DNA from: Flavobacterium branchiarum | Lineage (GTDB): Bacteria > Bacteroidota > Bacteroidia > Flavobacteriales > Flavobacteriaceae | Direction: 5' to 3' | NCBI RefSeq assembly: GCF_030409845.1 | Contig: NZ_JAUFQQ010000005.1 | Location: 682,001 to 746,000, forward strand | DNA length: 64,000 nucleotides | Shown here: one piece after another, positions 1 to 13,781 of the stretch | Layout: every line of letters begins with the position of its first letter | Position numbering within the stretch: the first letter of the stretch is position 1 | Translations under genes and position numbers: made by a program | Notes under the pieces: model-generated | Seen by the model: the letters and a program-made list of their open reading frames with translations, nothing else | Told to the model about the DNA's origin: nothing | Database searches by the model: none

Positions 1-424
1 AATCAAAAATAAATACCCGTTAAAACCTTTATTGATTGTAGTTAATAAAAGAGATATATTATCTGAAGATGAAGTTTCAAATATTACAAATCAGCTTGAA
101 AATTTAAATGCCAAACTCCTATTGATTTCTGCAAAACAGAAAATTGGGGTTGAAGATTTAAAGAATGAATTATTATCTTTTGTAAATACGGGTGCTTTAC
201 GAAATAATGAAACTATTGTAACCAATACAAGACATTACGACTCTTTACTAAAAGCACTAGACGAAATACAAAAAGTCAAATACGGACTAGAAACTAATCT
301 TTCGAGTGATTTAATGGCGCTCGATATTCGTGAGGCTTTATACCAATTCGGGTTGATTACAGGGCAGGTTTCTAATGATGAATTATTAGGTAATATCTTC
401 GCTAATTTCTGCATCGGAAAATAA
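1..424 (+). CDS. mnmE: MnmE (TrmE) tRNA modification GTPase, C-terminal part
   Basis: The reading frame is open from the left edge, so the 5' part of the gene lies outside the window. About 140 residues are visible. The G4 motif NKRD is near the start, followed by the end of the G domain and the helical C-terminal domain. The protein finishes with the family's C-terminal signature FCIGK, whose Cys is catalytically important. With MnmG, MnmE makes the 5-carboxymethylaminomethyl type modification at wobble uridine of some tRNAs. The last codons double as a probable attachment site: the stretch TGCATCGGA at 410-418 recurs at 4351 and 13112. MnmE 3' ends are known integration sites for genomic islands such as SGI1 of Salmonella. 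Identification is firm; its role as an attachment site here is inference. Confidence 0.95.
   Translation, partial: IKNKYPLKPLLIVVNKRDILSEDEVSNITNQLENLNAKLLLISAKQKIGVEDLKNELLSFVNTGALRNNETIVTNTRHYDSLLKALDEIQKVKYGLETNLSSDLMALDIREALYQFGLITGQVSNDELLGNIFANFCIGK
410..418 (+). repeat. Left attachment-site candidate in mnmE 3' end
   Basis: TGCATCGGA spans the last codons of mnmE. The same nine bases occur at 4351-4359 and 13112-13120. At 13112 the similarity continues for about 70 further bases, covering the mnmE stop region and its terminator. The three copies bound two successive blocks of accessory DNA, as expected for attL, an internal junction and attR of tandem islands. Confidence 0.7.
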
Positions 425-430
425 CATATT

Positions 431-458
431 ATAACTACCTGTTTTTATTAGTAGTTGT
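431..458 (+). terminator. mnmE terminator hairpin
   Basis: AACTAC at 433 pairs with GTAGTT at about 451 around a T-rich loop just after the mnmE stop codon. A degenerate copy of the same hairpin follows the repeat at 13112, so the element or duplication carried this terminator with it. Confidence 0.5.
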
Positions 459-478
459 TACAAAAATTAAGTAAAGAA

Positions 479-514
479 ATAACAAAAACAGATGTAGTTA
501 TCTGTTTTTGTTAT
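479..514. terminator. Bidirectional terminator between mnmE and the convergent gene
   Basis: AACAAAAACAGAT and ATCTGTTTTTGTT form a perfect 13-bp stem with a 6-base loop and T/A tracts on both sides. It overlaps the stop codon of the minus-strand gene at 511. The related sequence near 13180 keeps only the left arm. Confidence 0.7.
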
Positions 515-981
515 TTAAACATTTCTCTGAGTTCGCTTTTGAATCGGTATTCTATAAGTCCCAGATTTTTAACTCTTTCCTCAATTGCAGTTTTCATTTC
601 TCCATAATTCCTATGATAGAATTCTGAAATTGATCCGATTCTTTTTCCTTGTTGAATTATAAAAATGTATTCATAAGGACCACTTTTACTTGGTTGAATT
701 GATAAATTGAACCCTTCCAAATTCTTCAATTCAAAAATTTTCTGTTTTCCTAACCCAAAATATTCTCTAACAATAACCTTATCGTTTAGAATTTCTATTT
801 TATGAGCTCTTGTCCTAAATTCAGTAAGCCAAAGATAAATTGCTACTATCAAAAAAAACATAGGTCCAAGAATATCAGGTTTAGAAGAACTTAAAGTTAG
901 AAAGAATATTCCAAATGCTGACATTGTCACAATAAAGCAAATAATAATTGGAAGAAAAGCAAATTTTGTTTTAATATTCAT
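511..981 (-). CDS. Small membrane protein with PH-like cytoplasmic domain
   Basis: The protein has 156 residues. Two hydrophobic segments, at about residues 8-30 and 38-52, are followed by a polar domain of about 100 residues rich in alternating beta-type patterns. Two membrane helices followed by such a domain resemble bacterial PH-domain membrane proteins (the YdbS/DUF304 kind), but no decisive motif is present and this is only a structural guess. It is the only minus-strand gene in the island and lies outside the cassette series, between the mnmE junction and the first leader repeat. The 250 bases upstream of its start show no recognisable gene. Confidence 0.6.
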   Translation of the reverse strand: MNIKTKFAFLPIIICFIVTMSAFGIFFLTLSSSKPDILGPMFFLIVAIYLWLTEFRTRAHKIEILNDKVIVREYFGLGKQKIFELKNLEGFNLSIQPSKSGPYEYIFIIQQGKRIGSISEFYHRNYGEMKTAIEERVKNLGLIEYRFKSELREMFK

Positions 982-1233
982 TTGGTGAATTTAGGTGTTG
1001 TACGCTTTATTTTAGTGAAATTGATGCCAATATTCTACACTTGTAAATTTAAGTGAATAAAGATCAGTGTTTTTTCTATTGTAACCAAGATTAAGAGCAA
1101 ATAACTCAAATATTATAATAAAAATATTTGATACAAATCTAAGCAGAGAAGATTAGAACTATATCCCATTACAAATCTCACTTTTCTCAATTATAACGTA
1201 TCGTATAGGCTGTTCTTTTATATACTTTCTGAT

Positions 1234-1497
1234 TATTAAAGCAACTCTTTTTCGGACTCTTTTATAAATATTTTCTTTACCGCCTACTTGTTAGTTCAAC
1301 CTATACCCCATCTAAGAAATGAAGCTTAATTTAAAAATATACTGTATAAATAATTAGTATAATTTATATTTTCTACAGTAATAAATTAATAAAGATATTT
1401 CCTATATTCGCTTGAAATAAATGCTAAGTTATGACATAAAGCCAGTTAAAAATGGTGTTACTTGAGTAATTGTATAGCCCTAATAAATAAGTTAGCG
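1234..1497 (+). repeat. Leader repeat, copy 1 (attI-like)
   Basis: About 260 bp that recurs with some divergence at 5824-6088. Both copies start at TTAAAGCAACTCTTTTTC and end at AATAAATAAGTTAG. Both stop being similar at the GTTAG core (GTTAGCG at 1491-1497), exactly where the first cassette begins. Inside is a promoter -7-like box TATATTCG at 1403. This is the position and boundary behaviour of an integron attI leader, though no integrase is present. The region between the gene ending at 981 and this repeat holds nothing else recognisable. Confidence 0.65.
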
Positions 1498-1525
1498 ATA
1501 ATAATTCAAAAAAAAAAAACGAAAA

Positions 1526-2629
1526 ATGGACGACAATAGAAAAGAAGAATTTCTAATCTGCTCAAATTGTTTTAAAGATGAAGGACTTAAAATTGACGCA
1601 AAACAAATTGGAATCGAAAATGATGAACCTTGTAAAAAATGTAAATCTGAAGAAGGCGCTAAACTAACTAAAGATTTAACCAGAGATTTATGTTATCGTT
1701 TTTTCGTTAGAGGGACTATTGAAAAATGTGAATATGGTGGCTTTCCACTGATTGAGATGAATGAACAACATTATAACCGGTCAGATATTGATGTTTCGCC
1801 TTGGTTGATTGATGATGTTAAAGTAATTGAAAAAGCAGGAGAAATAGGCTTGTTTTACTATGGCCCTAGATTTTGGATGTTTGGGGAAATTGAACCGCTA
1901 AAATCACTCCAAAATAAAGAGGAAAGAGATGAAATAATTGAAACAATATTAAATAAATATCCCGTAAAATATTTAAACCCTGATAAGTATTTTTATAGAT
2001 TAAGAAAAGACCCTAAAGTACCACACAATTTTTCTGAATACGACACACCACCAGAACAATTTATTGGTGATGGTCGGTTTGATATTCCTAATTTTCCAAT
2101 TTTATATGGCTCTCAAGATTTAGAAATTTGTATTCACGAATGTAGAACAACAGTTGAAGATAATATTTTTGTGGGTAAGTTAAAGCCAAAACAAAATTTA
2201 AAACTTTTAGACTTAACTGAACATATTGAAGAAGAAAATGTAACTGAATTTGAAAGTTTAGATATGGCAATACATTTCTTGTTTTTAGCTGGAAAGCATT
2301 CTTATGAAATTTGTAGAAATATAGCTAAACAAGCTCATAAAAAAGGTTTTGATGGAATTATTTATCCTTCATATTTTAGTTATTTGAGAACAGGGACAAT
2401 TCCATTTGATACAGTTTATGGCATTTCTATTCGCAGAATTCCACAATATAGAAATTATGTTGCTTCTCAAATTATACCGAATTTAGCATTATTCGGTCGA
2501 CCTATAGAAGAGAATAAAGTAGAAGTAGAATGTGTAAACAAAGTTTTAATTAATAAAGTAATTTACGAAACTTCATTTGGACCAGCTTATCATAAAGCAT
2601 TTAGTGAAGAAGAAAATATTAACGTATAA
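1526..2629 (+). CDS. RES-domain protein with zinc-binding-like N terminus (cassette 1)
   Basis: The protein has 367 residues. The N-terminal 90 residues contain two Cys pairs (CSNC near residue 12, CKKC near 36) and resemble the N-terminal domain often fused to RES proteins. From about residue 150 the RES-family landmarks follow: YRLRK, the conserved YGSQDLEICIHECR block, and a late GFDGIIYPS / FDTVYGI region. RES domains are ADP-ribosyltransferase-like enzymes that consume NAD+, best known as toxins of Xre-RES toxin-antitoxin systems. No antitoxin-like gene precedes it, so a solitary defence or effector role is possible. The ATG lies 30 bases after the GTTAG core, so this is the first cassette after the leader. 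Promoter activity from the leader is inference. Confidence 0.8.
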   Translation: MDDNRKEEFLICSNCFKDEGLKIDAKQIGIENDEPCKKCKSEEGAKLTKDLTRDLCYRFFVRGTIEKCEYGGFPLIEMNEQHYNRSDIDVSPWLIDDVKVIEKAGEIGLFYYGPRFWMFGEIEPLKSLQNKEERDEIIETILNKYPVKYLNPDKYFYRLRKDPKVPHNFSEYDTPPEQFIGDGRFDIPNFPILYGSQDLEICIHECRTTVEDNIFVGKLKPKQNLKLLDLTEHIEEENVTEFESLDMAIHFLFLAGKHSYEICRNIAKQAHKKGFDGIIYPSYFSYLRTGTIPFDTVYGISIRRIPQYRNYVASQIIPNLALFGRPIEENKVEVECVNKVLINKVIYETSFGPAYHKAFSEEENINV

Positions 2630-2638
2630 AATTACTAC

Positions 2639-2771
2639 GGCTAACACTTGCTACAATAGATTTGGGCAATTGGCTTAATTTAAAAATGGTTTTGTATTTG
2701 GGAAGTTTTGACAAATCCGAAAACAAGGCTTAATTTAACCACAAACCTCTTGTAGCAAGGGAACCTTATGC
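2639..2771 (+). repeat. attC-like site a
   Basis: 133 bp between the RES and SieB-like genes. It opens with GGCTAAC and closes with CTTATGC. Inner arms ACTTGCTACAA and CTTGTAGCAAGG are complementary. The final core has C where all other sites have the G of GTT, so this site may be inactive. Family A (see the finding on two families). Confidence 0.75.
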
Positions 2772-2813
2772 GACATTTTTGAGAATCAGTTTACAATAGA
2801 AAACACTTTATAA

Positions 2814-3401
2814 ATGGAAAATTTCAAAGCATTATTTGACTTAACAAAATTACCTGCAAAATTCTTCTTTTTATTTGCAGTCTTATCAGGTTTTATTTTG
2901 TTTGCCGACCAAACTTTACTAAAAAGAATTCATTTAGAAAAAATGAATGAAAACTATGGATGGATTATCGGATTAGTCTTTATATCAACATCGGGATTGA
3001 TGGTTGTTAATCTAACAATTTGGATGTTCAATAAAATTACCTATAAGATAAAATTTTTTAAACTAAAAAAGGAATATATTGACAGTTTAAGAAACTTAGA
3101 TTATCATGAAAAATCTGTTTTAAGAGAGTTTTTAATCAATCAAAAAACTTCACTTGATGTCCCAATTGACGATCCGACAATTTCTGGTTTAATCAGAAAG
3201 AAAATCTTATTCATAAATAAACAATTTGGGAATGCTTTCATACTAAACGGAATGGATGCCTCGGTTTCCCTAAGTAAATTTGTAGACAAAAATTTGAAGG
3301 CTAGCGATATTGATATATCAGATAATCCAACAGAAGAAGAAATTAACTTTATAAAATCAAATAGACCATCTTGGAGCGAAAAACGATCTTGGCATTATTA
3401 A
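2814..3401 (+). CDS. SieB-like superinfection-exclusion membrane protein (cassette 2)
   Basis: The protein has 195 residues. Two strong membrane segments, about residues 16-34 and 48-70, are followed by a basic linker and a cytoplasmic domain of about 110 residues. The opening FDLTKLPAKFFF and the layout match the superinfection exclusion protein B family (PF14163), which in phage P22 aborts growth of superinfecting phages. The cassette is bounded by attC-like sites a and b. Its 5' end (TTATGCGAC at 2766) is complementary to the box GTCGCACAAC before site b. The family call is from memory of the pattern; an antiphage function in this host is inferred. Confidence 0.7.
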   Translation: MENFKALFDLTKLPAKFFFLFAVLSGFILFADQTLLKRIHLEKMNENYGWIIGLVFISTSGLMVVNLTIWMFNKITYKIKFFKLKKEYIDSLRNLDYHEKSVLREFLINQKTSLDVPIDDPTISGLIRKKILFINKQFGNAFILNGMDASVSLSKFVDKNLKASDIDISDNPTEEEINFIKSNRPSWSEKRSWHY

Positions 3402-3404
3402 AAC

Positions 3405-3539
3405 GTCGCACAACACACGTTTGGCGCAATTGCGAATTTTGTGGTGAGTTGACGTTAACGTTTCGCAAGAAATATTATCTTAGTGGAAAATAATCAGTTC
3501 CGTAGTTGGCAACTGACGCCAAGCGCGGGAACGTTAGCG
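3405..3539 (+). repeat. attC-like site b
   Basis: About 132 bp from the R'' box GCACAAC (3408-3414) to the core GTTAGCG (3533-3539). Inner arms TTGGCG and CGCCAA are complementary. It belongs to a different sequence family (B) from site a, sharing its interior with the site at 10284. Confidence 0.8.
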
Positions 3540-3571
3540 GTAACCCTACCAAAACAGACAGAAACAAGATA

Positions 3572-4165
3572 ATGAATAAAAAACAAGCAATAAAATATTC
3601 ACTACTTAATACCATACTAATTTTAGTTGGTGCTTTTATTCTTTATAAAGTTTGGTGGACAAATGATGGCGCAAAATTTTTAGGTCTAATTGGATATTTT
3701 TTAATTGGTTTTGGTTCTCTTCTTTTAAGCATTTCATTGACAAGAATTTTTATTTCTACTAAAACGGACTTTGATTTCACAACGCTTTCAAACAAAATTA
3801 AATATGACATTCTAAAAGAAACAATTGGTTCTTCTAAAGTAAAAGTTATAAATACAATTTACTGTTCATTAACTGTAATTATATTTGGAGGAACAGCGTA
3901 TTACTTGGTAACATCTCTAAACAAGTATGAGAAAGACCAACTGAAAAATTTTGGTCAAATACAAAAAGTGAGAATTAATGATATTCATTACAAAGGCAAA
4001 GGAACTCCATACGCTTTTTTTGATTTTTATTTGAATGGCAAAAAATTAACCAACAACTTAAATCCCAAAAATTATAGTGTTGGAGACAGTGCTACTATAA
4101 TTTTTTCAACTCATAACACTGACATTGTAAAATGGGCAGACGATTTTGACCCAAATGGCGAATAA
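3572..4165 (+). CDS. Membrane protein with DUF3592-like extracytoplasmic domain (cassette 3)
   Basis: Begun at the ATG at 3572 it has 197 residues. The frame is open 66 bases further up, but those bases overlap the attC-like core, so the internal ATG is preferred. Three hydrophobic segments (about residues 10-30, 37-60 and 92-115) are followed by a soluble domain with the pattern of DUF3592: a variable beta-rich stretch, then SVGDSATIIF and a final DP. Function unknown. It is the last cassette of the first island. The matching boxes GTTAGCGGTAA (3533) and TTACCGCCAAC (4187) frame it. Confidence 0.65.
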   Translation: MNKKQAIKYSLLNTILILVGAFILYKVWWTNDGAKFLGLIGYFLIGFGSLLLSISLTRIFISTKTDFDFTTLSNKIKYDILKETIGSSKVKVINTIYCSLTVIIFGGTAYYLVTSLNKYEKDQLKNFGQIQKVRINDIHYKGKGTPYAFFDFYLNGKKLTNNLNPKNYSVGDSATIIFSTHNTDIVKWADDFDPNGE

Positions 4166-4186
4166 ACTAATAAACAGAAAAAAGTA

Positions 4187-4219
4187 TTACCGCCAACTTT
4201 AGTTTCACAAGATTTGGGT
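4187..4219 (+). repeat. Truncated attC-like half-site c'
   Basis: TTACCGCCAAC and the first arm TTCACAAGATTTGGG resemble the left half of the complete sites. The usual right half is missing and is replaced by the right-end repeat that begins near 4241. The same arrangement is seen at 12913. Confidence 0.6.
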
Positions 4220-4240
4220 TATGATTATTTTGGTTTTTTT

Positions 4241-4360
4241 AAAATTAAATAAGTAACGAATTATTTTTACTATCATCAATTACGTTTTCTTTATCAAACA
4301 ACTACATCTTTACCTTGCTAAGCTCCTACAAACAAAGAGAAGTTAAATATTGCATCGGAT
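4241..4360 (+). repeat. Right-end repeat, copy 1, with internal attachment site
   Basis: About 120 bp similar to 12984-13122. Shared landmarks are ATTATTTTTACT, a C/T-rich then A-rich stretch, an AAAGAGAAGTTAAAT block, and finally TGCATCGGA at 4351-4359, the mnmE-end motif. It marks the right end of the first island and its junction with the second. Confidence 0.65.
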
Positions 4361-4426
4361 AAAATAAATCTATTCACATGATAATAAAAACTTTAACCTC
4401 ATAATACGGTGAAAAAACAACTTAAT

Positions 4427-4466
4427 CACCGCGTTTTTTGCGGAGAATAATTACTATATTTACCGC
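4427..4466 (+). promoter_or_regulatory. Promoter/operator candidate of the Fic gene
   Basis: CCGC at 4429, GCGG at 4440 and CCGC at 4463 form two nested inverted repeats. The second pair, 19 bases apart, encloses a TATATTTA box that would serve as the -7 element. The ATG follows 16 bases later. A repressor bound here would block transcription; autoregulation is inferred, not shown. Confidence 0.45.
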
Positions 4467-4481
4467 ATAAACTAAAAACAA

Positions 4482-5582
4482 ATGGCAATCTATATCCATC
4501 AACTTAAAAATTGGCCTAATTTAGAGTGGAATGAGCAAGAATTTATTTCGTTATTAAGCGATGTTAGAAACTTGCAAGGTAAGCTCATGGGAAAAGTGGA
4601 GTTGCTTGGTTTTGAGTTAAAAGACGAAGCCAACTTAGAAACTCTTATACAAGATGTATTACAAACATCAGAAATAGAAGGCGAAATATTAAATCCCGAA
4701 CTGGTTCGTTCTTCAATAGCAACAAGACTTGGACTAGAATATTCAGGCTTAGAACACTCAGATAGACACGTTGATGGAATCGTAGAATTAATGTTAGATG
4801 CCACACAAAATGACAACAAAACATTAACAAATGAGCGTTTGTTTGGTTGGCATGCAGCACTATTCCCAACGGGAAGAAGCGGTATGCATAAAATTGAAGT
4901 AGCCAATTGGCGTTCAGGTGCTATGCAAGTAGTTTCAGGTGGTATGGGGCGCGAAATTATACATTATGAAGCTCCAAAAGCAGAACAGCTAGCGTCGGAA
5001 ATGAAAGATTTCATACATTGGTACAATAACGACCTAAATCTAGAATCATTGCTTAAAGCTGCTGTTGCTCATCTTTGGTTTATAACCATACACCCATTTG
5101 ATGATGGTAATGGAAGAATAGCCAGAGCAATAACAGATATGCAACTTTCGAAATCTGATGGTGTAAATCAAAGGTTTTACAGTATGTCAACGGAGATAAA
5201 CAAACAGAAGAAAAGTTACTACACAATTTTAGAACGAACTCAGAGAGGTGATTTAGATATTACCGAATGGATCATTTGGTTTTTAGAGTGCTTAAAAAAC
5301 AGCATCCTTCACTCTAATACAATAGTTGATAAAGTAGTTAAAAAACATCACTTTTGGATTAACAATGTAGGCAAAATAAGTAATGAGCGTCAGCAAAAAA
5401 TGCTAAATCTATTAATGGATAATTTTGAAGGGAATTTAAATACTAGCAAATGGGCTAAAATAGCTAAAACTTCTCCAGACACAGCTCTTAGAGATATAAC
5501 AGATTTAGTCAATAAAGGCATTTTGATTAAAGCAGATTCTGGTGGAAGAAGTACGCATTATATTTTGAAAGATAAATTTTAA
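4482..5582 (+). CDS. Fic-family AMPylase with self-inhibitory helix
   Basis: The protein has 366 residues. It has the canonical Fic motif HPFDDGNGR at about residues 204-212, with catalytic His204. An N-terminal DUF4172-like region carries the inhibitory helix motif TSEIEG (62-67), whose Glu blocks the active site in class II Fic proteins. The last 70 residues form a winged-helix-like domain (TSPDTALRDITDLVNKGIL). Such proteins transfer AMP from ATP to hydroxyl groups of target proteins and often regulate their own expression. The gene follows the internal mnmE-type junction at 4351 and lies before the second leader, so it belongs to the island arm, not the cassette series. It is intact. Cell target unknown. 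Confidence 0.9.
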   Translation: MAIYIHQLKNWPNLEWNEQEFISLLSDVRNLQGKLMGKVELLGFELKDEANLETLIQDVLQTSEIEGEILNPELVRSSIATRLGLEYSGLEHSDRHVDGIVELMLDATQNDNKTLTNERLFGWHAALFPTGRSGMHKIEVANWRSGAMQVVSGGMGREIIHYEAPKAEQLASEMKDFIHWYNNDLNLESLLKAAVAHLWFITIHPFDDGNGRIARAITDMQLSKSDGVNQRFYSMSTEINKQKKSYYTILERTQRGDLDITEWIIWFLECLKNSILHSNTIVDKVVKKHHFWINNVGKISNERQQKMLNLLMDNFEGNLNTSKWAKIAKTSPDTALRDITDLVNKGILIKADSGGRSTHYILKDKF

Positions 5583-5638
5583 ATAATAAAAAAAACTACA
5601 ATTTGAAATATCTAAATCAACTCTAAAATGAATAGAAA

Positions 5639-5770
5639 TTGAAAAACAATACTAAACTTTTAGCATCAAAAGAACACTTAGCAAAAGGTTTATCAGATGC
5701 AAAAACAGATATGATTAAATGGCTTTTTGGGTTATTTTTTGCGCTAGCATTAATGATTATAGGGTTATAA
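5639..5770 (+). pseudogene. Remnant of a DUF1640-like coiled-coil membrane protein
   Basis: A 43-codon frame without an ATG (first possible start TTG at 5639, preceded by a stop). It reads as a short coiled-coil piece ending in a membrane segment, IKWLFGLFFALALMIIGL. This is typical of the C terminus of DUF1640-like proteins, which are normally two to four times longer. It is best read as a decayed 3' fragment. A terminator follows directly. Confidence 0.45.
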
Positions 5771-5788
5771 TTTAAGTAACTATATTTT

Positions 5789-5813
5789 AAATCCTACTAT
5801 GGTAGGATTTTTT
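5789..5813 (+). terminator. Rho-independent terminator
   Basis: AAATCCTAC and GGTAGGATTT form a tight stem with a 3-base loop followed by a T run. It separates the Fic gene and remnant from the second leader, insulating the cassette promoter region. Confidence 0.75.
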
Positions 5814-5823
5814 GTTGTCTAAT

Positions 5824-6088
5824 TTTTAAAGCAACTCTTTTTCAGACTTTTTTATAAATATTTGGTTTTCCATTTCCTCCTTGATTCTACCTATATCCCA
5901 TCTAAAAAAATGCAGTTTAATTTAAAAATATAGTATATAAATAATTAGTATAATTTATATTAACAACAGTAATAAATTGATAAAGATATTTTCTATATTC
6001 GTCTAAAAGAAATACTAACTTATAGCATAAAGCCATTTAAAAATGGTGTTACTTGAGTCATTGTATAGCTCTAATAAATAAGTTAGGC
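5824..6088 (+). repeat. Leader repeat, copy 2 (attI-like)
   Basis: Second copy of the leader seen at 1234-1497, of the same length, ending in GTTAGGC at 6082-6088. The box TATATTCG at 5994 and the small hairpin CCATTTAAAAATGG near 6031 are also in copy 1, the latter slightly altered. Similarity stops at GTTAG, the predicted recombination point. The box CGCCTAAC that closes the following cassette (8607) is the exact complement of GTTAGGCG here. Confidence 0.65.
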
Positions 6089-6137
6089 GATATTATGCCG
6101 AAATGACAGTAAAACCAACACCCAAAAATTAATTAAA

Positions 6138-8603
6138 ATGAATGAATACGACAAATCCTTTCAAAATTTATTAGAGTTCGAGAAATCATATGATGAATTT
6201 AAAAAAATGGATTTATCAGAAACAGACACAAGAAGTAAGATTCTTGATAAAATGTTAATTGATGTACTTGGTTGGACTGAATATGATATTGAAAGAGAAG
6301 GTTGGATTAGGGTTGGTTATTTTGATTATGAAATTAATACATCCTCTTTTCAATACGTAATTGAAGCAAAAAAGAATTTTGTAGAATTTAAACTTCCAGA
6401 AAAAGGAAATGAAGTAAATATCAAATCAATTTACGCAGGAAATAAAGAAGTTATAGACCAAATTCGCTCATATGTTGTAGAAAGAAGTTTAAGTTTTGGT
6501 GTTATTACAAATGGCACACAATTCATTGTTGGTCAATTTGCGAACACATTAGGAATAGATTGGAAAAATCAAAAATGTATTTTCTTTAAAGATTTAGATG
6601 ATATAAAAAGAAATTTTGATAAATTTTATGATTTACTACATAGACAATCTATTTGTAGATATGGAAAAATTAAAATAAATAAAACATCAAATATTGGTAA
6701 AACAATTGTCAAAGATTTTCCTTTAAAAAGGAAAAAAGTTGAATTAGTAAGGAATCAAATTAGTAAACAATTAGTTCCTATTATTAATCAAGTTTTTGTG
6801 GAAATTTATAATACAGAATCTTTAGAAGGAAAAAAAATTCTAACTAAATGCTATGTTCAAAATAAAGATGTTAAAAAATACAATTCAGAATTAGGCTATA
6901 TCTTTTCAGATGAGCCTCCAACTTTTGATAGTAGAATTGTTCCTGTTCAAAATACAGAAAACACGCAGAATCAAATTAAAGAACAAATTTTCAATGATGT
7001 TGGTTTTTTACCTGACCCAATTATTTTGATTGGCACTGCTGGAGCAGGAAAGACTACTTTTATAAAATATTTTACAGAAGTTTTACTGAACAATAAAAAT
7101 AAATCAAATCGTCCGTTTATTTATATAGATTTTAGACTTTTTACAAGTCAAATAGTTAGAGATACCAAATTTATTTATAATTCAATAATTGAACAAATTG
7201 AAAACGAATATCCTGAATTAAATCTTACAAAATATAATATACTCAAAATTATATATAAGAATGAAATTGATAAAAAAAAACAAGGAACTTGGTCATATTT
7301 ACTTAACGACGAAGATAAACTAAATGAAGCCATTTCAAAACTAATAGATGAAAACCAAAGTGATTCTCTAAAACATTTAATGAAAATTTCTGAATACCTT
7401 TTACATACTTGTAGAAAAAGAATGTGTATTGTATTCGATAATGCTGACCAACTTGATGATGCCGACCAAAAAGAAGTTTTTTTATTAGGTAATAGTATAA
7501 ACAGAAGTTTAAAATCCATTGTAATAATATCATTAAGAGAAGGTTATTTTTATAAATGGAAAAACAAACCCCCTTTCAATGCTTATCAATCGATAGTTTA
7601 TCACATTACGGCTCCGCCGTATAGCGATGTTATTGAGAAAAGAATTAAGTATGTAATGACACAATTTAATTTTCAAGAGTTAAGTTTGAGAGCAGAAAAC
7701 AAATTGGTAACTTTTCAAAATGGTAGTTTAGAACATTTATTCAAAAATCTATATGAAACTCTTTTTAATTCTAAAAATTCTGATGTAATGGAATTTTTAG
7801 AAGAAACATCATATCCAAATACCAGATTAGGATTAGAAATTTTTAAAAGTTTTTTATTATCAGGTCACTCAAAAATTACAGAATATATGTCTTTTGCATA
7901 CGGTATAGGAGAAGGAATTCCAATTTGGGAATTTTTCAAATCTATCGCCTTAGATTCTAATTTCTATTACGAAACAAATAAAAGTAAAATAGTAAATTTA
8001 TTTTATCCAAGTAAGTCTAATCGAAATCATTTTACAAAAATTAGAATTTTAAATTTATTGCATTTAAAACTAAAAAATTCTTCTAAACGAAAAGAATATT
8101 TTTTAATTTCTGAAATAACAAATGAATTTATAAAAGCTGGTTATACTATTGACATCATTGAAGAAGAATTACAAGAATTATTTGATTATAAGCTTATTTC
8201 CACATCTGAATATTCAGAAGATATTGAAGAGGAAACAACAATTGACTTAAATTCAATGATTTCAATAACATCAACTGGCGTTTATTACCTCAAATCTCTA
8301 ATTGGAAGGTTTCATTATATAGATTTGATACTTCAAGATACACCAATATATGATGATGACTTTTATAATGATTTAGCAAAAGTATTTCCAGATTCTGAAG
8401 AAAATGGGAATCGAAATTTAAGTCAAAGAAAATTATCAGTAGAAAAATTTGTAGATTATTTATCTTCACAAGAATTAAATGATAAGAAGTTTTTAGCGAA
8501 TTTTGAAGACAAAGAAATAATGTTTAATGTTTCTGGAAAAATATTCAATTCATTAAAAAAAGATATTGAAAAAATTCAGAAAGTAATTGTCAGAGAAAAA
8601 TAA
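6138..8603 (+). CDS. PD-(D/E)XK nuclease fused to P-loop NTPase (cassette 4)
   Basis: The protein has 821 residues. Residues 30-140 resemble the N-terminal nuclease domain of HsdR-like proteins: VLGWTEYDI, then D63, then VIEAKK with the Glu-x-Lys pair at 76-78. A Walker A motif GTAGAGKTT lies at about 299-307 and a Walker B-like CIVFDNAD near 430, followed by a long helical region. This is the layout of a STAND/KAP-type ATPase with an effector nuclease, typical of antiphage systems. No methylase is nearby, so it is not a classical restriction enzyme. It is the largest cassette, and its AT content matches the rest of the island. Nuclease assignment is moderately sure, NTPase sure; the defence role is inferred from architecture and context. 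Confidence 0.75.
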   Translation: MNEYDKSFQNLLEFEKSYDEFKKMDLSETDTRSKILDKMLIDVLGWTEYDIEREGWIRVGYFDYEINTSSFQYVIEAKKNFVEFKLPEKGNEVNIKSIYAGNKEVIDQIRSYVVERSLSFGVITNGTQFIVGQFANTLGIDWKNQKCIFFKDLDDIKRNFDKFYDLLHRQSICRYGKIKINKTSNIGKTIVKDFPLKRKKVELVRNQISKQLVPIINQVFVEIYNTESLEGKKILTKCYVQNKDVKKYNSELGYIFSDEPPTFDSRIVPVQNTENTQNQIKEQIFNDVGFLPDPIILIGTAGAGKTTFIKYFTEVLLNNKNKSNRPFIYIDFRLFTSQIVRDTKFIYNSIIEQIENEYPELNLTKYNILKIIYKNEIDKKKQGTWSYLLNDEDKLNEAISKLIDENQSDSLKHLMKISEYLLHTCRKRMCIVFDNADQLDDADQKEVFLLGNSINRSLKSIVIISLREGYFYKWKNKPPFNAYQSIVYHITAPPYSDVIEKRIKYVMTQFNFQELSLRAENKLVTFQNGSLEHLFKNLYETLFNSKNSDVMEFLEETSYPNTRLGLEIFKSFLLSGHSKITEYMSFAYGIGEGIPIWEFFKSIALDSNFYYETNKSKIVNLFYPSKSNRNHFTKIRILNLLHLKLKNSSKRKEYFLISEITNEFIKAGYTIDIIEEELQELFDYKLISTSEYSEDIEEETTIDLNSMISITSTGVYYLKSLIGRFHYIDLILQDTPIYDDDFYNDLAKVFPDSEENGNRNLSQRKLSVEKFVDYLSSQELNDKKFLANFEDKEIMFNVSGKIFNSLKKDIEKIQKVIVREK

Positions 8604-8606
8604 CAA

Positions 8607-8740
8607 CGCCTAACACTTGCTAAAAGTGATTTGGGCATTAGGCTGAATTTAAAAATGGTCTTGTATTTGGGAAGTTTAGGCAAATCCGAAAATAAGGCTT
8701 AATTTAATCCCAAACCTCTTCTAGCAAGGGAACGTTAGCG
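8607..8740 (+). repeat. attC-like site d
   Basis: Runs from GCCTAAC (8608-8614) to GTTAGCG (8734-8740), 133 bp, starting four bases after the stop codon of the ATPase gene. Family A interior, with arms ACTTGCTA and TAGCAAGG. The R'' box matches the 5' end of its own cassette over 8 of 8 bases. Confidence 0.85.
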
Positions 8741-8781
8741 GTCAGTTGACAGCAGAACGGGATAAAAAACAATGAAATACG

Positions 8782-8880
8782 ATGAAAATAGTAAGAAAAA
8801 TAAAATCTTGGTGGGATAAATTTATATGTCCTAAATGTGGAGAAGTTGCGAAGTTTTGTAAATGTCCAGGTGGGTGCTAA
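8782..8880 (+). CDS. Tiny zinc-ribbon-like protein (cassette 5, first gene)
   Basis: A 32-residue frame, ATG at 8782 and TAA at 8880. It is basic at the N terminus (KIVRKIKSWWDKF), then carries CPKC, CKC and a final C in close spacing, which looks like a miniature metal-binding knuckle. It starts 42 bases after the core of site d and ends 22 bases before the next gene, so it fits as the first gene of a two-gene cassette. No family recognised; the Cys pattern is the main reason to think it is real. Confidence 0.45.
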   Translation: MKIVRKIKSWWDKFICPKCGEVAKFCKCPGGC

Positions 8881-8902
8881 TATAAAATTTAATTAATAAC
8901 AA

Positions 8903-9214
8903 ATGAAAAAAGATAGAATAATTAAATTAACTGAAATTTTATTAAAAGTAGATCTAGGGTGGGCATTTTTTAATCCTCCTACAAGGTATAAAGTTGGAGA
9001 AATTGAAATTTTTGTGGATGTAAAAAAAATTAGCAGTTTTTCTAGAATCAACCCAAAAAACGAAGAAGTAGGTTTTTTTAATAGTATTAGCTACCCTGAA
9101 AATCCAATAAATATAAATTTAGAACCTATCACTTATTTAGAAATAGTAGGAGGGAGAAATATTTATGTCAAAGAAACTCCAGAAACTATAAAAAGATTAA
9201 TGGAGGAAAACTAA
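8903..9214 (+). CDS. Hypothetical protein, 103 residues (cassette 5)
   Basis: No signal peptide or membrane segment is visible, and I do not recognise the family. The sequence looks like a compact alpha/beta protein: an N-terminal helix (KLTEILLKVDLGW), a central FINP-rich part and strands around TYLEIVGGRNIYVKET. It is framed by sites d and e, whose facing boxes GTTAGCGGT (8734) and ACCGCTAAC (9375) are perfectly complementary. The 160 bases between its stop and site e contain only AT-rich sequence. Confidence 0.6.
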   Translation: MKKDRIIKLTEILLKVDLGWAFFNPPTRYKVGEIEIFVDVKKISSFSRINPKNEEVGFFNSISYPENPININLEPITYLEIVGGRNIYVKETPETIKRLMEEN

Positions 9215-9374
9215 AAAAGATTAACCCTAATTAATTTTAATTTTGTATGTATTTTCATTTCTTGTAATTTAGAATTGTACTAAAAAATCTATATATAAAG
9301 TTATCAATTAAATTAATGAAAAGAAAAATAGATTTAAAAATTGGAATATAAATACAGATTAAATACACAACCGA

Positions 9375-9510
9375 ACCGCTAACACTTGCTACAAGAGATT
9401 TGGGCATTTGGCTTAATTTAAAAATGGTCTTGTATTTGGGATGTTTAGGCAAATCCGAAAGATTAGTCATTTTTAATCCCCAAACCTCTTGTAGCAAGGG
9501 AACGTTAGTG
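9375..9510 (+). repeat. attC-like site e
   Basis: R'' box CGCTAAC at 9377-9383, core GTTAGTG at 9504-9510, 134 bp, family A. The arms ACTTGCTACAAG and CTTGTAGCAAGG are complementary over 11 bases. It has the best preserved arms of the series. Confidence 0.85.
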
Positions 9511-9556
9511 GCAAGCATCGCGCGACACTCAAAAAAAACTAACACAATTTTAATTA

Positions 9557-10255
9557 ATGGTTGAAAACTACACAGAAGAAGTTCTAAAGGCAAGACAAAT
9601 TTCACAGCAAGCGATTGAAAAAGAATATCCTAATGTTTTGGAACTATTAAAATTAATGGATGAATATATCGTATCATTAATAAACCGTTTTGAAAGTGTA
9701 AGTGGAATGGGAGAAATTGACAATTACAAATTAGCTTTGATTGTCTCATTCATTAGAACGCAATTAATTATTAGTGAACATATTCTCAATAGTGAGTTAA
9801 TTGAAGTTACTATTTTAGAAAGAAAACAAATAGAATTGATTGCGAGATTATCCGAAATCGATAAGAAGACTAACAACAAAGAAGGTCTACATAAATTAAA
9901 AGGTAAAACACCAAATATTGGAAATGGAAATGTAAGTGAGAACTTAAAAAACATGTATGGAATGTTTTCTGAAATAGCTCATTCTTCAAAAACAGAACCA
10001 TTTGCATTGATAGCGGAAAATACAGATAATGACACAATTGGATATAGCGTTTTACCTGAATATAATTCAACAAATACAATTGTTGCTTTAGGTAATCATA
10101 TTCAGCTATTTTTTGATTTCGTCATTTATATGTTTAGTTTTCAAGAAGCATTTATTCCAAGTTACACCAATGATGATGATGATATGGAATTAATAAACAA
10201 TCTGATAGAAAAAGGTAAACTCGCAAAACTTTCAGTATTTGATAGGTTTAAATAA
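9557..10255 (+). CDS. Hypothetical all-helical protein, 232 residues (cassette 6)
   Basis: A mostly helical, soluble, acidic protein with no signal peptide. Helices at about residues 25-45 and 60-105 (IRTQLIISEHILNSE) and a later segment YGMFSEIAHSS recall DUF5677/HEPN-like helical proteins found in phage-defence neighbourhoods, but the HEPN RxxxxH motif is not evident, so I leave the function open. The start at the ATG 47 bases past the core of site e is the first available. Framed by GTTAGTGGC (9504) and GCCACTAAC (10282), complementary over 9 of 9 bases. Confidence 0.65.
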   Translation: MVENYTEEVLKARQISQQAIEKEYPNVLELLKLMDEYIVSLINRFESVSGMGEIDNYKLALIVSFIRTQLIISEHILNSELIEVTILERKQIELIARLSEIDKKTNNKEGLHKLKGKTPNIGNGNVSENLKNMYGMFSEIAHSSKTEPFALIAENTDNDTIGYSVLPEYNSTNTIVALGNHIQLFFDFVIYMFSFQEAFIPSYTNDDDDMELINNLIEKGKLAKLSVFDRFK

Positions 10256-10281
10256 AACAAATTAGGAAAAGATAAATGCCA

Positions 10282-10415
10282 GCCACTAACAGGCGTTTGG
10301 CAAGATTGCGAATTTTATAGTAAATTCACGTTTACATTTCGCAAGAAATTTTATCTTTAACAGAAAATAATCGGTTCCGAACTTCGCAACCTCGCCAAGC
10401 GCCTGAACGTTATAC
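10282..10415 (+). repeat. attC-like site f
   Basis: R'' box CACTAAC at 10284-10290, core GTTATAC at 10409-10415, 132 bp. Arms GCGTTTGGC and CGCCAAGCGC. The interior matches site b (family B) rather than its immediate neighbours e and g. Confidence 0.85.
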
Positions 10416-10429
10416 AGCATATTTGCGAA

Positions 10430-10804
10430 ATGAAAAACCTCGGTAGAAAAAATCAGATTATGGATAAATATAACTTTAACAACAAGAAATTTGCATTAAT
10501 TGAAAACTCTGAAAGTGGACAAGTAAATTCTGAAACTGTTTTTGAATATAACCAAAATGGAAATCTTGTAACTGCCGATTATTTTGGAGGAACTATAAAA
10601 TATGGGAAGATTATTGCTGAGCTGAAAGACGATGAACTAAATATGCTTTATCAATGTTTGACAACAGATAATTTATTGAAAGCGGGAAAAGCAATAGCTA
10701 AAATTTCTTTGAACGAAAATGGAAAACTAAAACTGAGTTTAAATTGGGAATGGCTAACAAACAGAAACGAAAAAGGCCAATCTGAATACATTGAAATTAA
10801 CTAA
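10430..10804 (+). CDS. Hypothetical protein, 124 residues (cassette 7)
   Basis: A small soluble protein, strand-rich, opening with YNFNNKKFALIENSESGQVNSET and containing an extended SADYFGG-like turn (VTADYFGGTIKYG). No known domain recognised, though short beta-barrel proteins of this kind are common orphan cassette products in Bacteroidetes islands. The ATG at 10430 lies 14 bases after the core of site f; a second ATG at 10460 is possible. Cassette boxes GTTATAC and GTATAAC (10910) match over 7 bases. Confidence 0.6.
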   Translation: MKNLGRKNQIMDKYNFNNKKFALIENSESGQVNSETVFEYNQNGNLVTADYFGGTIKYGKIIAELKDDELNMLYQCLTTDNLLKAGKAIAKISLNENGKLKLSLNWEWLTNRNEKGQSEYIEIN

Positions 10805-10909
10805 CCGAATAAGCACAAATTGAAAGTACAAAAAAGTTTGTGAAATATACACTTTGAGCCGAACTTAATCGATTAGATAATGGACAAACTTTGTGGTTAA
10901 AAAAACGCC

Positions 10910-11042
10910 GTATAACACTTGCTACAATAGATTTGGGCAATTGGCTTAATTTGAAAATGGTTTTATACTTGGGAGGATTGGGCAAATCCGAAAATAAGGC
11001 TTAATTTAATCCCAAACCCTCTGTAGTAGCGGGACGTTACTG
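10910..11042 (+). repeat. attC-like site g
   Basis: R'' box GTATAAC at 10910-10916, core GTTACTG at 11036-11042, 133 bp, family A. The right arm is slightly decayed (CTGTAGTAGCGGG instead of CTTGTAGCAAGGG). Confidence 0.8.
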
Positions 11043-11162
11043 GCTAGTTATGAGAAAATCGGAATTCCGACAAAACAAAAACACTGTGAAAACTCAACAT
11101 TAAAGTTAGTGATTGATATATTTGGGAAATTAGTTTTGAATAAAAAAATATCCATATTCAAT

Positions 11163-11606
11163 ATGAAAAAAAATATTATAATGTTATTCTTAATAATGAA
11201 TATTGCAGTGATATATTCCCAATCACCTGTAGAAGATGATCATCTTCTTGTAAAAGCTTTTTATGGAGAAAAAGTAATTGTAAATAAAACAGTAGTATCG
11301 TATACAGTCACAGGTAAAACAACTTATTCTAATATCAATATTCCATTCAATATTTTTATTACTTCAAATGACCTATCGGGCACTATAAGGATTAATTCTA
11401 AAAAATTACGTGAAGATATTATGTTGAGATTTAAATGTATCCATAAAAAAATGACATATCTTGGTCTTAGGTATAGTTTTTATGATGATTATGATGAAGT
11501 AGCCTCATATACAATTCCCAAAGACGGAAGTCATCAAGAATTGTACATATCGTTTAAAGATGGTAGTTCCTATCTTTTTACAATTTCAAAGTATGACCAA
11601 TTGTAA
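11163..11606 (+). CDS. Small exported protein (cassette 8)
   Basis: The preferred start is the ATG at 11163 (147 residues), because the sequence from there, MKKNIIMLFLIMNIAVIYSQ, is a clean signal peptide with a cleavage site after Ser-Gln or nearby. A frame-compatible start at 11109 would bury it. The mature part is about 125 residues, strand-rich, with no Cys and no recognised domain; it could be a periplasmic beta protein. Framed by sites g and h. Roughly 280 bases between its stop and site h hold no gene. Confidence 0.6.
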   Translation: MKKNIIMLFLIMNIAVIYSQSPVEDDHLLVKAFYGEKVIVNKTVVSYTVTGKTTYSNINIPFNIFITSNDLSGTIRINSKKLREDIMLRFKCIHKKMTYLGLRYSFYDDYDEVASYTIPKDGSHQELYISFKDGSSYLFTISKYDQL

Positions 11607-11884
11607 TTTTTTTTCATACTTTTCAGTACAATACTTAAAAACGTTTCGCTACAAATCTAAAACTAAAATTCGAAACCGAAAATTTGGATTATCAAAGGGA
11701 TTGAAATTCTGAAGTGTTAAATTCAGAACTTGATTTTTTTTTGCGCAATATTTATAAAACGAAAAGTAGATAATTGAAAATAAAACCTCGAATTAAGAGC
11801 AGAAAAGCCGAAATATGAAAGTTGGATTAAGCCAACAGAAGCGTGAAAAATTTACGGTTTAATTGTAATTTCGACAAAATAACC

Positions 11885-12018
11885 AGCCAGTATCACACGC
11901 TACAAGAAATTTGGGCATTTTACTTAATGGAAAAATTGGTTTTTATTTGAAAAATTTGGTGAATCCGAAAGATAACGCTGATTTAATCCCAACTGCTTGT
12001 AGCGCAAGAACGTTAGGT
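11885..12018 (+). repeat. attC-like site h
   Basis: The R'' box reads CAGTATC at 11888-11894 where consensus would be CAGTAAC. The core is GTTAGGT at 12012-12018. About 131 bp with arms CGCTACAAG and CTTGTAGCG. The interior differs from families A and B, making a third variant. The 10-base box AGCCAGTATC still matches its cassette's start GTTACTGGCT at 9 of 10 positions. Confidence 0.75.
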
Positions 12019-12043
12019 ACCATTCCACAAAACACTTTAAAAA

Positions 12044-12907
12044 ATGACATGTAAACTATGTAATCTTAACAAAGAATTAAGAGAAAGTCACATTATCCCG
12101 AAATGTATTTTCAGATGGCTTAAAGATTCTGGCGGAGATTATTTTAGAAGTCCAGAAACTTCAAACAGAAGATTACATGATGGTATTAAACCGAGAATGC
12201 TTTGTAATGAATGTGAGGGAATATTCTCCAAATTAGAAACTGATTTTTCATCCAAAATTTTTTATCCACATGTAAAAAAAGGGCAAACAACTTTTGAATA
12301 TAATGCTAATCTTTTCAAATTTTCCGTATCAATTCTTTGGAGAGTTTTATGTCAAGAATACTCATCGTTAAGTTCATACCCAAATTTTAGTCAAGAATTA
12401 TACGATGCCGAAAAAGAGTGGCGAAGTTTTTTATTCAGCGGTAAGAAATTGGAGAACATTAATGAAATTCATTTAATTTTCACAACTCATTCACTCAATT
12501 ACAACATTCAGCCGGTAGAAAATTTTTTATATTATCATGCAAGAGGAATTGATGCAAGCGTCTATTCAAATTCACATTTTAGTTTTATTTACGCTAAATT
12601 AGCAAGAGTCATAATTATTGGTGAAATAGCTAATAAAAGTTCTTTTAAATTTTCTAATAATGTAATAACTGAAAGTCCAGGCAATCTCGATACGGAAAAA
12701 ACTAAACTTGAAGAACTTACAAAAGCTTACATGATAAATCGTCTCAAAAAAATAAATACTCAATTCGATCAAATATCGGAAAATCAGAAAAGAGTTGTAT
12801 TTGAATATGCCGACAAACAAATGAAACAATCAGAGAATACAGAAATGTATAAAATAAACATGGCGCAACTAAAAATGTCAATTGACGAGAATTTTCTAGA
12901 TTTCTAA
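12044..12907 (+). CDS. HNH-like zinc-binding protein (cassette 9)
   Basis: The protein has 287 residues. It opens with CKLCNLNKELRESHIIPK and then, about 35 residues later, LCNECE. The two CxxC pairs around a Ser-His-Ile-Ile-Pro motif are typical of an HNH/treble-clef nuclease-like domain often found in defence islands. The remaining 200 residues are helical and probably bind the substrate or partner. The second catalytic His/Asn is not clearly identifiable, so catalysis is uncertain. Last cassette of the second island; boxes GTTAGGTACC (12012) and GGCACCTAAC (12913) pair at 9 of 10 bases. Confidence 0.65.
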   Translation: MTCKLCNLNKELRESHIIPKCIFRWLKDSGGDYFRSPETSNRRLHDGIKPRMLCNECEGIFSKLETDFSSKIFYPHVKKGQTTFEYNANLFKFSVSILWRVLCQEYSSLSSYPNFSQELYDAEKEWRSFLFSGKKLENINEIHLIFTTHSLNYNIQPVENFLYYHARGIDASVYSNSHFSFIYAKLARVIIIGEIANKSSFKFSNNVITESPGNLDTEKTKLEELTKAYMINRLKKINTQFDQISENQKRVVFEYADKQMKQSENTEMYKINMAQLKMSIDENFLDF

Positions 12908-12912
12908 AGAAC

Positions 12913-12960
12913 GGCACCTAACAGCTATTTTGCAAGATTGGGCATTTAGTCGAATTACCG
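12913..12960 (+). repeat. Truncated attC-like half-site i'
   Basis: GGCACCTAAC and the left arm are present (TTTTGCAAGATTGGGC), but the right arm and core have been replaced by the right-end repeat. This repeats the arrangement at 4187. Confidence 0.6.
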
Positions 12961-12983
12961 TTTATACAAATTTTATTTTTTCT

Positions 12984-13190
12984 TAAATTAAAAAGTAAGC
13001 ACATACAAATTATTTTTACTGTCATTAATTACTCTTTCCTTTATTAAAAAATTACATCTTTTGTACACCTCTACCCTCTTAATGCCTTATAAATAAAGGA
13101 AAGTTAGATATTGCATCGGAAAACAACATATAATAACTTCCTGTTTTCATTAATAGTTGTAACAAAATATTGCAGAAAAATAACAAAAAG
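12984..13190 (+). repeat. Right-end repeat, copy 2, and right attachment site
   Basis: 12984-13122 repeats the block at 4241-4360. It contains a perfect 12-bp inverted repeat CTTTCCTTTATT (13034) / AATAAAGGAAAG (13092), then GTTAGAT, then TGCATCGGA at 13112-13120. From there to about 13185 the sequence follows the original mnmE 3' flank (bases 419-490), which ends partway through a terminator arm. This is the right boundary of the second island. Confidence 0.7.
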
Positions 13191-13781
13191 AGGGTTATCG
13201 AAACTAGTATTTGAATCAGAAGGAAATCAACAATCCCAAAATTATATAACCAAATTACAAAAAAATTGAAACATAGTTGTCACTGACTTAAGCATCTACA
13301 GGGCAGTAATTATTTGTCTTTTTGTAGTCAAAAGAATTATCCAGATGACTTCCAAACAATACTATCTCTTTTTCATCCGTGATTCAATCAATGGTATAAA
13401 TTTAAAGACCCAGAGCTGAATTGTCGAATGATAGCTTTAGGATAGCAATGACCTTGGGTATTCATTTAATATATTTTGAAGTTCTAAAAATAATAGTTAT
13501 TAAATAGAAGCGACTGAACCAGGTTAATTCATTAAATAAAATACCAATCTAAAAAACTACAAATTTAATAATTTACAGATTTTATATCTTTCACAAAAGT
13601 GGTTTTGCTAAGGAATAATAAAACCTTAAAAATATTATTTTTTTCAATTTCAACTCGTGTTGAAGATTGTGGTTTATATTTGTTTCCAAAATTGATTTTA
13701 GCTACTTTTAAAAAATTAATAGTTTTTGTGACCCCAATTTTTCAAAACGAGTATTTTTCCAAATAGTTATTTCGTCTTATT
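13191..13781. other. Intergenic region without a recognisable gene
   Basis: No open frame of useful length and no clear repeat. The last 120 bases upstream of the kinase gene at 13782 contain a TATATTTG -7 box (about 13675-13682) that could be its promoter, but the matching -33 TTG is not well spaced. Confidence 0.5.

Follow-up and report, generated by a model that had tools for sequence, protein, structure and literature searches.

Two orphan integron-like cassette arrays in Flavobacterium branchiarum and a predicted XerA-type recombinase linked to such arrays in the genus

The 64,000-nucleotide stretch of the Flavobacterium branchiarum genome analyzed here (the window) contains two runs of gene cassettes, array A (1491 to 4197) and array B (6082 to 12922), each preceded by a similar leader. 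We read them as two orphan integron-like arrays in which the start and the closing box of a cassette are the arms of one attC-like site. A XerA-type enzyme, which is encoded beside arrays in related genomes and was not found in the F. branchiarum assembly, likely recombines this site in the form of a folded bottom strand. We assign this reading a probability of about 0.78.

Cassette ends and the attC-like site

The first-pass annotation of the window had listed eight cassette starts, each complementary to the closing box of its own cassette. All eight pairs were located in the sequence, and a ninth was found in addition (start at 1491 with the box ending at 2645). When scored over 11 informative positions, the nine true pairs had a mean of 9.33 matches and the 72 false pairs a mean of 4.56. 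The own box was the best match in all nine rows of the 9 by 9 table of starts and boxes, and the observed sum was reached by one of the 362,880 permutations, namely, the true assignment. The pairing in the window is real and not due to chance. These scores exclude the alternative, raised in the same annotation, that the boxes are simply a shared consensus, and its claim that pairing lies within a cassette and not between neighbors agrees with the background level of the false pairs, both in the window and in other genomes. Likewise supported is the proposal that a cassette that circulated carries, as its start and closing box, both halves of a single attC site: matches numbered 5.16 of 6 within cassettes, 2.27 in false pairs, and 2.30 between R' and R'' of the same physical site.

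The pairing extended to other arrays, as had been suggested. A set of 120 cassettes from eight other genomes and F. branchiarum (paired from 16 stretches of 10 genomes plus the F. branchiarum genome) gave 9.28 of 11 matches, compared with a mean of 4.86 in 2,000 within-genome shuffles (standard deviation, 0.19; largest value, 5.54). In groups with at least four cassettes, the own box was best or tied in 98 of 114 cases. Fewer than 7 of 10 matches were seen in 22 of the 120 cassettes, which were kept in the set; in some of these, the closing arm is longer by one base, and others probably span a site missed by model R1, a covariance model made from nine sites of the F. branchiarum genome, which found sites in 252 of 398 genus genomes. 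The same behavior was seen in 86 further cassettes from 22 loci of named records. The two sets have one identical pair in common and together comprise 206 cassettes with 196 distinct pairs.

By itself, the pairing is textbook integron anatomy and not new, since 14 cassettes located beside canonical IntI genes in other Bacteroidota (from 4 of 16 loci) show it too. In these controls, the fraction of cassettes in which start and own box agreed was 0.93 to 1.00 at each of positions 5 to 10 and fell to 0.71 and 0.36 at positions 11 and 12, where false pairs gave 0.22 and 0.10; true pairs were near background beyond position 12. Traced into other genomes, the known pairing points to a putative cassette system that has a recombinase type and a site grammar of its own.

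The first-pass annotation gave the length of the match as 7 to 11 nucleotides. A match of this length is present but stops too early, as position 11 is a fixed mismatch beyond which pairing picks up again and continues through position 15. Across the 206 cassettes, the arms are 15 nucleotides long, with ten paired positions, the fixed position 11, and four more paired positions. Position 11 of the start, which falls outside the site model, is A in 206/206 cassettes, and that of the closing arm is G in 170/206 (196/196 and 164/196, respectively, when only distinct pairs are counted). In the 120-cassette set, arm identity was 0.71 to 0.98 at positions 1 to 10, 0.02 at position 11, and 0.88, 0.74, 0.80, and 0.73 at positions 12 to 15, with background levels from position 16; the start had A at position 11 in all 120 cases, and the closing arm had G in 94, C in 21, T in 3, and A in 2. 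The corresponding values in the 86-cassette set were A in 86/86, G in 76/86, and identities of 0.78 to 0.90 at positions 12 to 15. By eye, the 21 closing-C cassettes (start ..CA.., closing ..TCG..; in the window, cassette B2 at 9383) seem to have one extra T by position 11.

The A/G combination at position 11 gives a T.G wobble on the bottom strand and an A.C mismatch on the top strand. A second, near-fixed G.T is present in the inner stem on the bottom strand (143/147 and 133/139 sites; 276/286 in total). The inner stem has no bulge in 226 of 283 sites, and the bulged remainder has no side preference (19 only in L'', 23 only in L', and 15 in both). In canonical sites, the bulges were on the L'' arm, with none on the L' arm, in 23/23 cases. 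The spacers on the R' and R'' sides are 5 and 1 nucleotides long in 82 of 146 sites and 7 and 3 nucleotides long in 33; unequal spacers are also present in canonical sites.

In reconstituted circular sites, the predicted stability of the bottom strand exceeds that of the top strand in 186 of the 206 cassettes (mean, -29.7 versus -25.8 kcal/mol) and that of the in-array form in 191, and the folded bottom strand would be the substrate. Five window sites folded as the bottom strand had z scores from -6.65 to -0.84. Strand choice in canonical integrons is governed by the first extrahelical G, and it can still be imposed by the unpaired central spacer when extrahelical bases are absent (PMC2727003), which makes the spacer a second candidate strand mark here.

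The recombinase linked to arrays in related genomes

The array-linked enzyme of the relatives is a XerA-like tyrosine recombinase of 347 amino acids. All 51 homologues keep the R, K, H, R, H, and Y catalytic residues and have 65 residues between the catalytic K and H, whereas 106 are found in 28/28 canonical IntI proteins; an insertion of ~41 residues is thus present in every canonical IntI protein and absent from every array recombinase. Consistently, the alignment to the solved integron integrase 2a3v falls into two parts, leaving out 42 residues of 2a3v. In the integron-like subgroup of Smyshlyaev et al. (PMC8138268), the insertion is not fully conserved. Scores against the TIGR02249 integron integrase model were 211.7 and 198.2 bits, below the curated cutoff of 265, and those against the NF040815 XerA model were 220.5 and 219.9 bits, with a curated cutoff of 220. 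The best NCBIfam model was recomb_XerA_Arch, and the closest solved relatives by sequence are of the archaeal XerA type. In a tree of 23 array recombinases and 28 canonical IntI proteins, each group formed one clade (100/99 support); the two Xer rows are long branches, and the deeper order is not settled by this tree. The enzyme of one genus genome (G168) is 89% identical to that of Flavobacterium taihuense.

The enzyme also has an extra N-terminal domain of ~70 residues (the first ~60 at L162:10001-10192), predicted to fold as beta-beta-alpha-beta-beta-alpha and containing conserved W residues. The SMARCAL1 HARP substrate-recognition domain (4o66) was the first Foldseek match (E value, 0.25) and was rejected as an identification: 4o66 was not among the 50 structural-alignment rows listed, and neither Pfam (six members) nor a profile search of PDB sequences supported the link. 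Several copies of the 347-amino-acid recombinase (e.g., in genomes G112, G045, and G078) contain in-frame stops, which could explain orphan arrays. A second, related recombinase class of ~580 amino acids has a site just downstream and in the right direction at 3 of 14 loci (L041, L046, and L051), so that recombinases of more than one type may serve the system.

Linkage was analyzed in 80 loci with the 347-amino-acid protein, taken from named records, using model R2, which was built only from sites of other genomes found by R1 in recombinase loci. As R2 derives from R1 sites in the same loci, this affects the number of sites found and not their position. A downstream in-line site was found in 42/80 loci, or in 42/59 of those with at least 700 nucleotides of downstream sequence; 21 of the 38 loci with no site hold less than that. 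All but two of the 139 sites (137/139) lie downstream of the recombinase gene and in the same direction. For 36 of the 39 loci analyzed (out of 42), the first closing box by itself puts the predicted core 70 to 168 nucleotides beyond the stop codon, placing the predicted attI of the relatives about 105 nucleotides past the recombinase stop, with a conserved TATATACAA-like tract preceding the core (36 rows with at least 12/15 matches). A central inverted repeat noticed by eye in attI failed as a fixed-position feature.

Sites were found in 176 and the recombinase in 81 of 198 genus genomes, with sites in 79/81 genomes that have the recombinase and in 97/117 that do not (Fisher P = 0.001). Co-occurrence with IntI, as judged by TIGR02249 matches, was not significant, and this query mixes several recombinase classes. 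The IntegronFinder 2.0 paper names one complete Bacteroidetes integron, that of Salinibacter ruber M1, and places others in Chlorobi and Ignavibacteriae (PMC9024848). Of 395 genomes sampled from the whole phylum, 105 had canonical IntI over the cutoff (L108-L137 and L146-L161), more than such papers would suggest. None of 199 genus genomes had IntI over the TIGR02249 cutoff. The GTDB phylum is presumably wider than the Bacteroidetes of those papers.

Layout of the window and the orphan arrays

The F. branchiarum genome assembly comprises 5.0 Mb in 5 contigs. The window starts with the 3' end of mnmE, followed by the elements listed below (arm matches are given for positions 1 to 10 and 12 to 15, and site scores are those of model R2; sites were modelled on the bottom strand).

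1228 to 1490, plus strand: leader of array A; its last bases form a predicted orphan attI core (CTAATAAATAA, followed by GTTA)
1491 to 2645, plus strand: cassette A1, start GTTAGCGATAATAATT; RES-domain gene at 1526 to 2629 (Pfam RES, E value of 3e-12); closing arm ends at 2645; arms 8/10 and 4/4, flanking A/G at position 11
2634 to 2773, minus strand: attC-like site closing A1, 119.5 bits
2765 to 3414, plus strand: cassette A2; SieB-like gene at 2814 to 3401 (Pfam SieB, E value of 3e-24); arms 8/10 and 4/4
3403 to 3541, minus strand: attC-like site closing A2, 78.2 bits; bottom-strand fold z of -0.84, no better than shuffles
3533 to 4197, plus strand: cassette A3; gene at 3572 to 4165 with no Pfam family; arms 9/10 and 2/4, A/A at position 11; closes on a truncated site
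5818 to 6081, plus strand: leader of array B, with a predicted attI core
6082 to 8614, plus strand: cassette B1; gene at 6138 to 8603 for an 821-amino-acid AAA/NACHT-like ATPase (Pfam AAA_22, E value of 2e-7); arms 9/10 and 4/4
8603 to 8742, minus strand: attC-like site closing B1, 139.5 bits; fold z of -2.36 (bottom) and -1.17 (top)
8734 to 9383, plus strand: cassette B2; gene at 8903 to 9214; closing arm with one extra T; arms 9/10 and 2/4, ungapped
9372 to 9512, minus strand: attC-like site closing B2, 133.7 bits; bottom-strand DNA fold z of -6.65, 0/200 shuffles as good
9504 to 10290, plus strand: cassette B3; gene at 9557 to 10255; arms 9/10 and 4/4
10279 to 10417, minus strand: attC-like site closing B3, 102.1 bits; fold z of -4.87
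10409 to 10916, plus strand: cassette B4; gene at 10430 to 10804; arms 9/10 and 3/4
10905 to 11044, minus strand: attC-like site closing B4, 112.5 bits; fold z of -1.26
11036 to 11894, plus strand: cassette B5; gene at 11163 to 11606; arms 9/10 and 4/4
11883 to 12020, minus strand: attC-like site closing B5, 103.0 bits
12012 to 12922, plus strand: cassette B6; gene at 12044 to 12907; arms 9/10 and 3/4; closes on a truncated site

In the window, model R2 detected seven complete attC-like sites, with none at the ends of A3 and B6. A third array with its own leader, as well as a separate pair of sites, was identified on contig C3 (L025:8341-9977 and L027:13272-14103), and arrays A, B, and this third one each end in a site cut off after the R'' half.

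The three attI-like leaders of the genome end in AATAAATAA, followed by GTTA. Leader A is 86% identical to leader B and 83% identical to the copy on C3; its last bases fit the attI consensus of the relatives at positions -8, -7, -6, -4, -2, and -1 and miss it at -9 and -3. Whereas the predicted attI of the relatives lies beside a recombinase gene, the window has leaders only, and no recombinase gene was found beside leader A or beside the attC-like sites. No close homologue or pseudogene of the 347-amino-acid recombinase was found in the assembly, where the best matches were XerD (32%) and a XerC-like protein (27%), both encoded by separate genes. The next matches were longer tyrosine recombinases (frames of 417 to 473 amino acids), which by their length are probably of the CTnDOT type, and one short fragment. 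The leader pattern had no exact matches in the genome_contigs set, and a leader search of 299 genus genomes gave only three partial matches outside F. branchiarum. Near these three, we found neither a frame with tyrosine recombinase motifs (two positive controls were detected) nor a full site at E values up to 0.1. The leaders are most likely platforms that have lost their enzyme or are served by one located elsewhere. The nine window cassettes preserve their arms (9.33/11) about as well as 200 cassettes of other genomes (mean, 9.47), suggesting recent circulation.

The last bases of mnmE (C/TTGCATCGGA) occur as copies at 409 to 418, 4350 to 4359, and 13111 to 13120 and thus flank both arrays, a layout resembling that of two islands inserted in tandem at the mnmE 3' end. 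This short pattern alone is not rare (7 matches with at most one mismatch versus 3.2 expected). The tail at 12977 to 13140 matches one further place in F. branchiarum and also has matches in 5 of 149 other genomes of the genus.

As for cargo, an open reading frame (ORF) of at least 60 amino acids was present in 162 of the 206 cassettes (counted inside one stretch), and in 151 of these 162, the longest ORF was on the cassette sense strand; the median longest ORF had 180 amino acids. A family scan of 80 ORFs (9 from the window and 71 from elsewhere) identified GNAT acetyltransferases, parts of toxin-antitoxin systems, a cytosine methylase, and SieB, a mix that resembles the cargo of ordinary integrons. 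In a PADLOC scan, the 80 cassette ORFs gave 89 families, the best 25 of which have one or two members each, so no enrichment of defence cargo is claimed.

Alternative explanations and comparison with known systems

In the mechanism that we favor, a free circular cassette would bring both arms together, the bottom strand of the circle would fold into a hairpin, and the recombinase would join this hairpin to the attI located just past its own gene. Each cassette would thereby retain its own two arms, which would account for arms pairing within cassettes and not within the physical site. The two G.T wobbles (A.C on the top strand), together with the unequal spacers, may mark the strand, replacing the canonical extrahelical bases.

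Several observations weigh against this reading. No recombination event was observed. Linkage is incomplete: no site was found in 17 of the 59 loci with at least 700 nucleotides downstream, and among the 42 loci with sites, the distance to the first one exceeds 3 kb in 5. Nor is the link one to one, as 97 of 117 genomes with no recombinase still carry sites, and cruder queries gave weak co-occurrence (P = 0.14 and P = 0.016). The leaders of F. branchiarum resemble the attI of the relatives only near the core. Closing position 11 is other than G in 36/206 cassettes, one inner pair often shows a C.A mismatch on the bottom strand (62/139 sites), and some bulge occurs in 57/283 sites. The bottom strand is favored less often by in-array sites (158 versus 44 of 206) and in only 127/206 cases by the inner hairpin alone, and of the five window folds, two (z of -0.84 and -1.26) do not improve on shuffles and one is modest (-2.36).

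The XerA-type enzyme might instead act on double-stranded DNA, as Xer does at dif, with the complementarity of the arms inherited and not used in a hairpin. Its best score as XerA fits this idea, as does its lack of the I2 region, which has been tied to single-strand work (PMC7790495). We nevertheless consider it unlikely, because varying arms that are complementary over 14 positions are not needed by a double-strand reader of a fixed sequence and because the fixed G.T positions favor the same strand. Still less probable is it that the cassettes belong to a canonical integron, with IntI either lost or provided in trans, and that the arrays are ordinary clusters of attC sites lacking an integron integrase (CALIN). 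Canonical integrons share the pairing of start and closing box, IntI is common elsewhere in the phylum, and model R2 weakly recognizes some canonical sites; however, IntI over the cutoff was absent from the genus genomes, the sites have no canonical one-sided bulges, and the linked gene has no IntI insertion in any of the 51 homologues. Finally, we give almost no credence to the stem-loops being RNA elements of the genes (terminators or processing sites), although they sit 3' of genes and can fold: the transcript would be the top strand, where the fixed positions are A.C mismatches, the outer arms within an array come from different cassettes and do not pair, and an Rfam search of positions 1 to 14000 at E values up to 1 gave only a subthreshold snoRNA match inside a gene.

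With recombination of a folded strand by a XerA-type enzyme as the preferred reading, it is likely that bacteria have a second way to shuffle cassettes, since the recombinase of these arrays lacks a domain reported to be necessary in integron integrases. We see even odds that a second type of integron has evolved or been retained in Bacteroidota, that most genomes of the genus have it, that in it an I2-less XerA-like enzyme captures folded single-strand cassettes and two G.T wobbles rather than extrahelical bases tell the strands apart, and that it went unseen because searches ask for IntI and its sites. Single-strand recombination is held to have come with the I2 domain, and Escudero et al. 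(2020) state that direct proof is lacking because deletion of I2 abolishes IntI1 function (PMC7790495). A natural cassette system with neither the I2 insertion nor one-sided extrahelical bases would make this question directly testable. If the reading holds, a large cassette pool of the genus, with sites in most genomes, may be invisible to present tools. No earlier description of such a system was found in the open-access PMC literature, as far as it was searched, which is weak evidence of absence.

Integron cassettes are bounded by GTTRRRY cores, and attC extends from the RYYYAAC inverse core to the core (PMC3053210). The Flavobacterium arrays resemble integrons in their single-gene cassettes, in the R'', L'', L', R' order, in the origin of start and R'' from one site, in an attI-like platform, and in a varied cargo of acetyltransferases and toxin-antitoxin genes. 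They differ in that the array recombinase has no IntI insertion, its gene is in line with the cassettes, the sites have no one-sided extrahelical bases, and the arms extend over 15 nucleotides with a fixed position 11. As in CALIN, at least two sites occur with no integrase gene nearby (PMC9024848), a likeness that holds if the window sites count as attC; the window arrays differ from CALIN in their attI-like leaders and in having sites of the type linked to the XerA-like enzyme. The catalytic core of the array recombinase, like that of XerA and XerCD, has no IntI insertion, whereas its extra N-terminal domain and its linkage to cassette arrays set it apart. In the integration of CTX phage, as described in PMC4792948, Xer enzymes with no I2-like domain also act on a phage stem that has no extrahelical bases, but the phage uses the XerCD of its host and involves neither cassettes nor a dedicated recombinase.

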